A stretch of 64,000 bases of DNA from Myxococcales bacterium (lineage in GTDB: Bacteria > Myxococcota_A > Polyangia > Polyangiales > Houyiibacteriaceae), in assembly GCA_029862185.1 (NCBI GenBank), contig JAOTXX010000009.1, positions 1-64,000 of the forward strand. The letters are read 5' to 3'. Positions 10,202-37,043 of this stretch are shown piece after piece (within the stretch, counting starts at the first letter, position 1; each line of letters opens with the position of its first letter). The position numbers were made by a program, and so were the translations under genes. Under the pieces are notes generated by a model that ran no database searches, was not told the DNA's origin, and saw only the letters and a list, made by a program, of their open reading frames with translations.

Positions 10202-10288
10202 GGCCGAGTGGCGGAATTGGCAGACGCGCCGGATTCAAAATCCGGTATTCGCAAGAATGTGTCGGTTCGAGTCCGACCTCGGCTACCA
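10202..10288 (+). tRNA. tRNA-Leu (anticodon CAA)
   Basis: Class II cloverleaf of 87 nt. The acceptor GGCCGAG (10202-10208) pairs with CTCGGCT, closing with a G-U pair. U8 and G9 follow, then a Leu-type D arm, the anticodon stem CCGGA/TCCGG with loop TTCAAAA (anticodon CAA), a long variable arm, and the T arm GTCGG-TTCGAGT-CCGAC. Discriminator A and an encoded CCA end the gene. The first structured repeat copy begins 24 nt downstream on the same strand. Confidence 0.95.
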
Positions 10289-10312: not shown

Positions 10313-10501
10313 CGGGACACGGCGGAACGCGATGCGAGGGTTCGACGGACGGGGCGGCTTGCAAGCGTGGCCGGATGGACTGGGGGCGCGGGGCCACGCA
10401 AGCCGCCCCTCGGAGCTCGCGCCAACCGGCGGTGGTTGCTGTCATGGCCGTTTGTCACTCACACGCCGCCGAACCCCCACATCGCGTTCCGCCGCGCCCC
10501 T
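10313..10501 (+). repeat. Structured ~190-bp dispersed repeat, copy 1
   Basis: The outer arms 10320-10348 and 10466-10494 are inverted repeats matching at 26 of 29 positions. Hairpin A inside is GCGGCTTGC + 4-nt bulge + GTGGCC against GGCCACGCAAGCCGC. Hairpin B is CAACCGGC against GCCGTTTG, with one mismatch. Between A and B lies CTCGGAGCTCGCGCC, identical in all three copies. No open reading frame or transposase is present. The other copies are at 36720-36906 (+) and 11216-11405 (-). Confidence 0.85.
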
Positions 10502-10717
10502 CTGTGAGTCGATGAGAGCGTCGACGTTTGTATCATCGCGAGTGTTACTGCCAGTGCCGGTGCCTCGGGAACCGAGACTTTCGTCACAAGCGTCTCAACG
10601 AGAGCAATGGAAAGGGTACCGGAGTGTTTGTCCCTGGTGGACGAAGTCGCCCAGTTCGGATACGCACTGTTTGTGGGTTGTCCTCGATTTCTCAGTCTTC
10701 GATCCGGCGCTGCGGCG

Positions 10718-11140
10718 ATGCTCGTCCTGTTGTGCGCTTGCGGGGAAAGCGACGGCCGACCTTCGAGTGCTGGCAACACAGCCGTGCGAGTCGAGTGGCC
10801 GTTCCCCGTGCATCCACATCGCGTGGAGTCATACACCTGCTGCGGTGAGTCGGTTGAGAACTGCTTGTCTGAGCTGCTATCGGGGGAGATCGAACGATTA
10901 GTGTTCGGGCCGAACAATCCACCTGTCTCGGAACCTAGCGAGGTCACGGAGATGTTCATTGATCTTCCGGATGACTCGCGGTGCGGTGTCGCACTTTACA
11001 TCGACTGCGGAGGCGAGATCCTGTGCACGGCGTCACAGGTCTTCGACGTTCCGAGCGAGGGACTCGTTAGCGTAGACATCGTAGGCATCTGCAATCCGTT
11101 TTCCTCGGAGCAGGCGGACGCGTGCCAACGAGCGAAGTGA
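10718..11140 (+). CDS. Small cysteine-rich putative lipoprotein
   Basis: 140 residues starting at an ATG that gives a short hydrophobic signal ending in a lipobox-like 'LLCACG', followed by a Ser/Gly-rich linker. The mature part holds several cysteines ('YTCCGES', 'NCLSE', 'RCGVALYIDCGG', 'EILC'), suggesting disulfides in an exported protein. I do not recognise the family. There is no convincing ribosome-binding site and the frame stays open upstream to 10607, so the start is uncertain. It is flanked by inverted copies of the structured repeat, with no other gene between them. Confidence 0.5.
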   Translation: MLVLLCACGESDGRPSSAGNTAVRVEWPFPVHPHRVESYTCCGESVENCLSELLSGEIERLVFGPNNPPVSEPSEVTEMFIDLPDDSRCGVALYIDCGGEILCTASQVFDVPSEGLVSVDIVGICNPFSSEQADACQRAK

Positions 11141-11215: not shown

Positions 11216-11405
11216 AGGGGTGCGGGAAAACGCGTCATGGGGTGGAGTCGACGTAGCGAGTGACAATCTGCAAGACAGCAACCACCGCAGATTGGGCGCG
11301 AGCTCCGAGGCGAGGCTTGCGTGGTCCAAGCTTTCAAGTGCAACCGACCACATTTGCAAGCCGAGCCGTTCGACGTAGCCCCGTGTCGCGTTTTCCCGCG
11401 CCCCG
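11216..11405 (-). repeat. Structured ~190-bp dispersed repeat, copy 3 (diverged, inverted)
   Basis: On the minus strand this aligns end to end with the other copies but with different stem sequences. The outer arms (11217-11242 and 11379-11404) match at 23 of 26 positions and carry GCGGGAAAACGCG instead of GCGGCGGAACGCG on both sides. Hairpin A closes with GTGGTC/GACCAC instead of GTGGCC/GGCCAC. Hairpin B is CAATCTGC/GCAGATTG, perfectly paired. CTCGGAGCTCGCGCC and TTGCTGTC are unchanged. It begins 13 nt after the 3' end of the kinase gene at 11419. Confidence 0.8.
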
Positions 11406-11418
11406 GTTGTTCTACGAT

Positions 11419-13152
11419 TCAGCGCGCGGCGACGTGTTTTTCCATCAGCTCTTGCAGCTCTGACGGCTTCTCGTCTGGATCCTTGCCGTTGCGGCTCTTG
11501 TCGATGTCTTCGAGGAGCTCTCGGCACTCTGGCTTGTCGCGAAGGTGGTCGAGCAGCAGGCTCGAGGCGGTGCCGAAGGCGGTTTCGTAGCTGAGTGCTT
11601 CTCCGACGCGGCTGGCAATTCGTTCGCGGCCCGTTTGAAGGTCATGCTCGAGGGCCTCGCTGTATCGCTTCAACTGAGCGCGAAGCTCCTCGATTTGCTT
11701 GCGGCGCTCTGCTGCGGTCTCTTCTTTCGAGCGTGCGCGACGTTCGTAGTCGCGCGCGACCTCCGCGAGCACGTCGCACTGAGCACGGGCCACGCCAAGC
11801 GCTTCGTATCCGCGGCGGATACGCTCAACGTTGCTGCCCGCCAAGTTCACTTCGGCCTCGGCCGATTGTTGCGCTCGCTTGGCACGCTTGAGCTTGAGAA
11901 TCAGCTGGCTCAGCGAGTCGCGCTCCGACGACGCGTCACGCAGGGCGCGCGATTCCTCTCCGGCAAGATCTTCGACCTTACGTCCGATTTCAGCGCGGAG
12001 CGCTCGCCCGCGCTTCTCGATGGTCTCGAGCTTCTTGGAATGGCTTTCGAGCTCGCCCTCGAGCCGGGACGCCCGTGACGCGAGCTCCCAGATCTGGTCC
12101 GACGCGCCTTGCACCTCGGTTGGCGCGTTTCCGTCGGGGTATGCACGCGCGACAGCTCGCAGGAAGTTCGCCGCGGTCCGGCTCCACTCGACGACGCCTG
12201 GCGTCTGAGCCGGTGGCGGCAGGGGCGGCGCGACAGGAGCCACATCCGTCGACTGGTCCCATTCCCGCGAGGGAAGCGTGCGCTGCATCTCTTTGAGCTC
12301 TTCTTTGAGATGGTGCCCGTCACGAAAACGATCTTCCGGCTTCTTCTCGAGTAGCTTCAAGATGATGTTCTCGGCATGCTCCGGAATGTCCGAGCGGTAC
12401 TTGCTGGGCTTTGGCGGGGTCGCCGTTCGCTGCATGTCGAGCAGCTCGTCACGGTCGCCCGAACGGAACGGAAGGCGTCCGGTCAGCATCTCGAAGAACA
12501 GAACCCCGAGTGCATAAAGATCGCTCGACGAAATCGCATCTTCGCCTCGCGCTTGCTCCGGCGACATGTACTCTGGGGTGCCGAACACCGCGCCCTTCGG
12601 AGCGAGGCGCGGGTCACGAGTGAGTGCAGCGAGACCGAAATCCAAGATCTTCACGAAGTCTTTTCGGCCGCCGCGCGCGGTGACCATGATGTTGTCACTC
12701 TTGAGATCGCGGTGAACGACACCGAGGTCGTGCGCGCGAGCGAGCGCTGCAGTCATCTGCTCCAAGATGTCGACTGCCCGCGCGATGGGCATCGGGCCTT
12801 TTGCGATCTGAGACGAAAGCGAATCTCCGATGAGGTATTCCATCACCAGGTAGAGCTCGCCTTCCTCCGTTTCGCCGACGTCATGAATGTCGACGATGTG
12901 TGCGTGGTCGACCCGGTTGGCCGCTCGGGCTTCTCGCACCATCCAAGCGCGCAAATGCGTTTCCCCGCGAAGGTCGGGTCGAATCAGCTTCAGCGCAACG
13001 ACACGGTCGATGAGCACATGGCGCGCTCGGTAAACGACACCCATGCCCCCCTCGCCGAGGAGTGATTCCAATCGATATCGACCCGCGACGACCTTCCCGA
13101 GAAGCGGATCCTTCGATTTCTTCGAGCGCGATGCTTTGCGAACAATCCCCAT
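11419..13152 (-). CDS. Hanks-type Ser/Thr protein kinase with C-terminal coiled coil
   Basis: 577 residues. The kinase domain covers roughly 25-285: glycine loop 'LLGEGGMGVVYRA', Lys in 'VALKLIRPD', catalytic loop 'VVHRDLKSDNIM', 'KILDFGLAAL', and 'GTPEYMSPEQARGE'. A proline-rich linker leads into about 200 residues of heptad-like coiled coil ending in a charged tail. No transmembrane segment is seen, so it is probably cytoplasmic. The ATG at 13152 has GGGGGAA just upstream; a TTG 30 bases earlier is in frame but weaker. It is divergent from another kinase at 13302 across 149 bp, and followed by structured repeat copy 3. Confidence 0.93.
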   Translation of the reverse strand: MGIVRKASRSKKSKDPLLGKVVAGRYRLESLLGEGGMGVVYRARHVLIDRVVALKLIRPDLRGETHLRAWMVREARAANRVDHAHIVDIHDVGETEEGELYLVMEYLIGDSLSSQIAKGPMPIARAVDILEQMTAALARAHDLGVVHRDLKSDNIMVTARGGRKDFVKILDFGLAALTRDPRLAPKGAVFGTPEYMSPEQARGEDAISSSDLYALGVLFFEMLTGRLPFRSGDRDELLDMQRTATPPKPSKYRSDIPEHAENIILKLLEKKPEDRFRDGHHLKEELKEMQRTLPSREWDQSTDVAPVAPPLPPPAQTPGVVEWSRTAANFLRAVARAYPDGNAPTEVQGASDQIWELASRASRLEGELESHSKKLETIEKRGRALRAEIGRKVEDLAGEESRALRDASSERDSLSQLILKLKRAKRAQQSAEAEVNLAGSNVERIRRGYEALGVARAQCDVLAEVARDYERRARSKEETAAERRKQIEELRAQLKRYSEALEHDLQTGRERIASRVGEALSYETAFGTASSLLLDHLRDKPECRELLEDIDKSRNGKDPDEKPSELQELMEKHVAAR

Positions 13153-13301
13153 CGTTCCCCCGTAACTAGTGGGCAAACTCAATGATAAGCAGGAACGAAG
13201 CGCAGCCCCAAGTGTTCCGCTCTGGCTGAAACGTGGAGTAAGCTGACATCAGGTGCCCGAGCTGCCTATCATGGAGGGGTCGGTCACTAACGGAGGGATG
13301 T

Positions 13302-36719: not shown

Positions 36720-36906
36720 CGGGACGCGGCGGAACGCGACACGGGAGTTCAACGGACGGGGCGGCTTGCAGATGTGGCCGGATGGACTGGGGACCTAGGC
36801 CACGCAAGCCGCCCCTCGGAGCTCGCGCCAATCGGGGCGGATTGCTGTCTTGCCGATTGTCACTCACACGCCGCCGAACCCCCGCATCGCGTTCCGCCGC
36901 GCCCCT
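36720..36906 (+). repeat. Structured ~190-bp dispersed repeat, copy 2
   Basis: Outer arms 36727-36755 and 36871-36899 match at 24 of 29 positions. Hairpin A is GCGGCTTGC + bulge + GTGGCC against GGCCACGCAAGCCGC. Hairpin B is CAATCGG against CCGATTG, different from copies 1 and 3 but still fully paired. CTCGGAGCTCGCGCC and TTGCTGTC are conserved. It follows trpF directly on the same strand. No coding capacity. Confidence 0.85.
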
Positions 36907-36927
36907 GAATCCATATCCATTCAATAG

Positions 36928-37043
36928 GAGAACGGCTCGGGATGGGCAGCACAGGGATTGGGTCGAGCCTAGCCGTGGGTCGTCTTGAGGAATAGGGGGC
37001 GAGTGGGTCCCAATCCCGAGCACGACCGTCGCGAGCCGTTCTC
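36928..37043. repeat. Nested inverted repeats upstream of the amidohydrolase gene
   Basis: GAGAACGGCTCG (36928-36939) and CGAGCCGTTCTC (37032-37043) form a perfect 12-bp stem. Inside it GGGATTGGG (36954-36962) pairs perfectly with CCCAATCCC (37009-37017). An alternative pairing CTCGGGAT/ATCCCGAG (starting at 36936 and 37013) competes with both. The structure ends 72 bp before the amidohydrolase ATG. Only one copy is seen in the window. Confidence 0.7.

Follow-up and report, generated by a model that had tools for sequence, protein, structure and literature searches.

The window, that is, the whole stretch of 64,000 nucleotides analysed here, contains three copies of a repeat of about 190 bp (Table 1), all of which are present as originally predicted and can be aligned end to end; the copy at 10313 is 88% identical to that at 36720 and 73% identical to that at 11216. 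The ORF that precedes the third copy looks, by eye, like nadC. The repeat had been described as encoding no protein, and this agrees with the finding that many of the substitutions between copies are compensatory pairs, the open frames that run over the copies looking like spurious overlaps. The segment CTCGGAGCTCGCGCC, described as invariant, is indeed intact in all three copies, but one subfamily of the wider family has CTCGGCGCGCGCGCC. Between the first two copies, which face in opposite directions and enclose it in a composite-transposon-like arrangement, lies an ORF of 177 amino acids (10607–11140) that starts like a lipoprotein (LLCAC) and matches nothing in Pfam; in one relative (G018; G, C and L numbers are our handles for genomes, contigs and loci) the tRNA-Leu gene lies almost directly beside the next gene, without this ORF.

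Table 1. Copies of the element and a neighbouring repeat in the window.
Feature	Position	Strand	Description
Element copy 1	10313..10501	- (functional)	core 10345-10469; 28 nt downstream of tRNA-Leu (10202-10285)
Element copy 2	11216..11405	+ (functional)	core 11248-11373; 13 nt from stop of convergent ORF 11419-13182
Element copy 3	36720..36906	- (functional)	core 36752-36874; 12 nt downstream of ORF ending 36708
5′ foot of copy 1	10498..10505	- (functional)	ACAGAGGG: NNAG, then arm
Family II long hairpin	36927..37043	+	GGAG at 5′ foot, CCGGT 3′ border; 24 genus sequences aligned

The secondary structure was derived from an alignment of 41 distinct full-length copies from the genus, set on the complement of the strand originally labelled plus. 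RNAalifold yields -102.5 kcal/mol on this functional strand as against -49.4 on the other, and the original strand assignment has to be reversed, the structure being held by the strands listed in Table 1. Standard pairs fill 98.5% of the cells of the 60-pair structure and 32 of the 60 pairs have changed on both sides; pairing as high as this was reached in none of 500 shuffles, and sliding the partners by 1–3 columns lowers it to 38–45%. One-sided changes at pairs, counted on a tree, separate the two strands clearly: read on the functional strand, G-C pairs underwent 38 events to G-U and 2 to A-C, and A-U pairs 11 to G-U and 1 to A-C. Since unpaired control columns differ at most about 2-fold (per site, C>T 2.25, G>A 1.0, A>G 1.1, T>C 2.2), mutation bias cannot explain this asymmetry, and at pairs also chosen by the fold of the other strand the count was 16 versus 2 (p 0.001). 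Single copies behave in the same way: on the functional strand the copies at 11216 and 10313 fold at -113.2 (z -9.9) and -128.2 (z -6.9), respectively, and on the opposite strand at -94.4 (z -5.9) and -110.7 (z -3.7); DNA energies give an identical fold with a smaller strand difference than RNA energies. One G-U pair does not vary at all among the 41 copies. A search for tertiary pairing beyond the nested fold yielded 19 column pairs; they include no run of adjacent pairs, and we take them as subfamily signal. The fold is under selection on one strand only, G-U being kept and A-C purged.

Read along the functional strand, the element consists of a foot (NNAG), an outer stem (P1, about 27–30 pairs), a first hairpin (P2, GUG-A/C-CAAYCGG...CCGRUUGG-CRC), the linker CCGAGG, and a second hairpin (P3) in which CUUGC-GYGGC faces GCCRC-NYYU-GCAAG with a bulge of 3–4 nt on its 3′ side, before the strand returns into P1. 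In this genus the ends read A-GGGG at the 5′ side and CCCC-G at the 3′ side. Core identity is 71–75% among this genus and two relatives from elsewhere in the order (G021 and G047), whose arms are unrelated. Within each of these two relatives, the two arms of a single copy are 95–98% complementary, yet between copies of one genome the arms are 68% identical as against 81–83% for the core; complementarity has therefore been kept while the arm sequence drifted fast. The letters of the bulge, of J2/3 and of the loops are conserved across genera. The foot precedes the 5′ arm in nearly all copies, as GTAG in 6 of 7 copies of G021, as GGAG in most copies of this genus, and as TGAG, CGAG, CAAG or GCAG in G047. 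The conserved part is the three-way-junction core, and what has been selected is the folded form, not the sequence of the ends.

The original prediction of a dispersed family is borne out well beyond the window, with a number of copies that greatly exceeds chance. A sequence search of the assembly to which the window belongs (4.29 Mb, 169 contigs) returned about 25 near-full-length matches and some ten lone arms, and a covariance model of the core found 29 copies; such counts are lower limits, since in this assembly and in those of relatives many contigs break off within a copy. The element is carried by 17 of the 18 other genomes of the genus, with core counts by covariance model of 40 (G003), 37 (G009), 34 (G005) and 31 (G001) at one extreme, and of 1 each (G014, G016, G018) or 0 (G008) at the other. 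Covariance searches recovered diverged relatives in five further genera, two in the same family and three in other families of the order: in the rest of the order, a model built from this genus only found 7 copies in G021 (same family, other genus) and, in other families, about 10 in G047, 4 in G042 and 1 in G040, and a broader model, applied to 379 phylum genomes with strict filters that miss weak matches, added 3 in G024 (same family). Most genomes of the family lack the element, and copy number runs from 0 to 40 inside a single genus. Scanned for an exact pattern, 84,980 species genomes yielded matches in three metagenome-assembled genomes only, all Myxococcota or labelled as such (JADGRE01 ‘Chersky.17_24’, JANQQS01 ‘IP29b_bin.34’ and JAPPOT01 ‘SB9155_S4_bin_12’), and the copies in the last were confirmed by covariance model. 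A match in a viral contig is a chance hit that the covariance model does not find.

As had been predicted, the element does not belong to a named family. No Rfam family matches it in the window at the gathering threshold, and relaxed thresholds applied to genus relatives and distant relatives gave, besides tRNA, chance matches only, far below the cut-offs; no report of such repeats in Myxococcota was found among open-access titles. The element is a kind of small mobile element without earlier description.

That the element moves follows from occupancy of the same site, which differs among relatives. Directly behind the nadC-like ORF, the element is lacking in G010 and represented by different variants, with different downstream repeats, in G000 and G005, and G012 has the left arm only, joined to another sequence; the spacer that separates tRNA-Leu from the next gene is as short as some 30 nt between matches in G018 and elsewhere exceeds 900 nt, with various inserts. 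At both sites the relatives are too diverged to reveal the exact insertion junction. G016 and G018 have one copy each, at unrelated sites, and these two copies share a homologous unit of 344 bp; units of about 200–260 bp are shared amid unrelated surroundings in G021, G042 and G047. These observations demonstrate that the element is mobile in multiple copies. No consistent target duplication was seen beside the copies, and none at the nadC-like site when compared with G010, where divergence precludes a letter-exact junction.

In this genus, 22 of the 32 copies for which both neighbours were called (by a simple codon-composition method) lie between convergent genes and none lies inside a gene, many copies standing 3–17 nt behind a stop codon. 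One flank is unique, being the end of a gene, and the other consists of further short repeats. At several loci (L002, L013, L015, L023 and others) the right flank holds two more repeat modules, CATACGGAGACA... and CATTCATATCCA..., and after them GGCAGGCGGCAGCGCGAGCCCGAAGGGCGAAGCCCGGCGCG, a repeat rich in GC. Examined for a bias of copy orientation towards the lagging strand, the one-contig genome in the genus (G013), a scaffold interrupted by runs of N, gives no clear skew.

The long hairpin termed family II (Table 1), one of these flanking repeats, is unrelated to the element, yet has the same boundaries, GGAG at the 5′ side and CCGGT at the 3′ side; its G-U cells outnumber A-C cells on the plus strand by 67 to 10, and it therefore folds on the strand opposite to that of the element copy at 36720. 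Family II is fused to the 5′ arm of the element in several loci, and in the window’s own genome (L026, L027, L031, L033, L038) element arms are attached to different cores or interrupted by family II, arm and core mosaics like those of a BOX or BIME system. In G047 (L143, L150) the copies are arranged in divergent pairs, with about 230 nt from one core to the other; every copy has long inverted arms of its own, and a hairpin GGGCTTGC..GAGCC stands before the foot. In G015 and G007 (L081, L082) the nadC-like gene is followed by another palindrome, of the type AAGGGG(T/A)CAG(A/T)CCCCTT.

We tentatively favour, as a first choice that falls a little short of being probable, a non-autonomous mobile element whose folded single strand is recognised, most likely as single-stranded DNA in the manner of REPs. 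One strand, once single-stranded, would fold into the P1 outer stem, the P2 hairpin, the CCGAGG linker and the bulged P3 hairpin; we infer that a protein acting in trans, possibly an HUH-type enzyme, recognises the folded core of the three-way junction together with the NNAG foot of P1 rather than the arm sequence, its substrate most likely being single-stranded DNA, as is the case with REPs and with IS200/IS605 elements. The element would then be inserted elsewhere without evident target duplication, which IS200/IS605 insertion likewise does not produce, and copies would persist chiefly in two settings, immediately after stop codons and between convergent genes.

The closest known parallels are the REP, BIME and REPIN repeats with their RAYT (TnpA-REP) HUH enzymes (PMC3733652, PMC6006769), which are also multi-copy, intergenic and found mostly behind genes or between convergent genes. 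REP-type repeats have a hairpin with a short unpaired tag at the 5′ foot, comparable to the GTAG of G021 and the predominant GGAG of this genus; one strand matters in both, and a single-copy Y1 gene is found in most element carriers of the genus. However, a REP is a simple conserved hairpin of 20–65 nt with the tag GT[AG]G, whereas the element is a branched three-way junction of 190–260 nt with a conserved core, free arms and the tag NNAG. In IS200/IS605 elements, as would be the case here, a hairpin is recognised on one strand with a tetranucleotide 5′ of its foot (PMC6006769), but their ends are hairpins of 20–25 nt flanking a gene, whereas the element is a single folded unit without one. 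The CIR repeats of Caulobacter and Brucella (PMC2229807) are intergenic and have a multi-arm secondary structure conserved across genera; they have two linker-joined arms and a GANTC motif, a motif not noted in the element core when inspected by eye.

A candidate for the enzyme is an IS200-like Y1 transposase whose gene is present as a single copy in most copy-rich genomes of the genus (L102, with orthologous loci L095, L097, L098, L099, L101 and L106), between leuS and an mglA-like GTPase gene, both named by eye from sequence. The gene is absent where there are 0–1 element copies, except in G008, whose Y1 protein is of another kind. The transposase scores 59 bits against the 80-bit cut-off of the REP-associated model, related but below it. 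A linked RAYT gene is flanked by REPs, whereas the Y1 gene is bounded by inverted repeats of its own, GGGGACAC, unrelated to the element, so that a RAYT flanked by the element was rejected; with these borders it resembles the ‘TIRYT’ genes with GGGGWSAS ends of Di Nocera et al. (PMC3733652). Also against a Y1-based mechanism, no Y1 gene was found in the carriers G047 (about 10 copies) and G042 (4 copies), nor in G009 and G002, these last two being only 80% complete. The link between the Y1 transposase and the element is suggestive.

The evidence of the fold can equally be turned in favour of RNA as the working form, namely a structured non-coding RNA, bound by protein or lying in the 3′ UTR of its neighbours, whose dispersal would be incidental or due to an RNA–protein complex. 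The purging of A-C with tolerance of G-U on one strand, the invariant G-U pair, the bulge, J2/3 and loop letters conserved across genera, and the larger gain of the functional strand under RNA than under DNA energies would all be expected of such an RNA; a folded single-stranded DNA substrate predicts the compensatory changes and the one-strand G-U tolerance too. Against an RNA stand the lack of any conserved promoter or terminator in view, flanks that differ wholly between genomes, and a distribution, absent from most of the family and varying within one genus, unlike that of a housekeeping RNA. We rank this reading second and regard it as rather unlikely. Somewhat more doubtful still is a mobility in which a large folded three-way-junction core, of RNA or single-stranded DNA, would be recognised by its shape by machinery that is neither a reverse transcriptase, nor a DDE enzyme, nor the linked Y1 enzyme, with the arms drifting under mutual correction.

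The original reading offered a MITE-like mobile hairpin and a structured RNA as alternatives; mobility and a structure selected on one strand are both shown, but the element is not a MITE in the strict sense, as its arms are not conserved terminal repeats. A DDE insertion sequence shortened by deletion and moved through its terminal inverted repeats would fit the size, the lack of an ORF, the inverted and the isolated arms, and the mosaics formed with other cores, and the element resembles known MITEs (NEMIS/Correia, ERIC, RUP, bcr1, Chunjie, QMITEs; PMC10969869, PMC2229807) in being short, non-coding, dispersed and intergenic near gene 3′ ends. Yet its arm sequence is not conserved between copies of one genome and is wholly different between genera, no target duplication was seen, and the centre is conserved rather than the ends. 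An arm search of the window’s own genome found no autonomous parent insertion sequence, and the only arm pair noticed kilobases apart, 4.6 kb on C20, encloses only ordinary genes and was rejected as an autonomous transposon. A classical MITE is thus already disfavoured, and we consider it improbable. The element stands beside REPs and MITEs in kind, failing a defining feature of each.

The placement of copies behind stop codons and between convergent genes could also mean that the repeats are immobile, kept by a host function such as nucleoid binding, protection of mRNA 3′ ends or termination, and spread by recombination. The differing occupancy of the same site among relatives, the different variants that can occur at one site, and closely similar units at unrelated sites make this quite improbable, although a host role acquired later is possible. 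Finally, a retro-element, whose RNA would be reverse transcribed in the manner of a retron or an ORF-less relative of a group II intron and then reinserted, would account for the missing target duplication, the RNA-type covariation on one strand and a retron-like layout of long a1/a2-type outer stem, small hairpin and large hairpin, but is very improbable given that no RVT_1 protein was found in nine genomes tested (G000, G001, G003, G005, G007, G009, G012, G015 and G021), several of them 95–100% complete and copy-rich, with one such protein in G013, and that no Rfam intron or retron matched.

Small palindromic repeats are common in bacteria, and for most of them we know of no established mode of movement. 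The element described here is an unusually clean case: strong one-strand covariation goes together with freely changing arms around a core that is conserved across families, and within one genus some species hold 40 copies and others none or one. Which protein recognises the fold, and whether as DNA or as RNA, is a question that this family makes directly testable.
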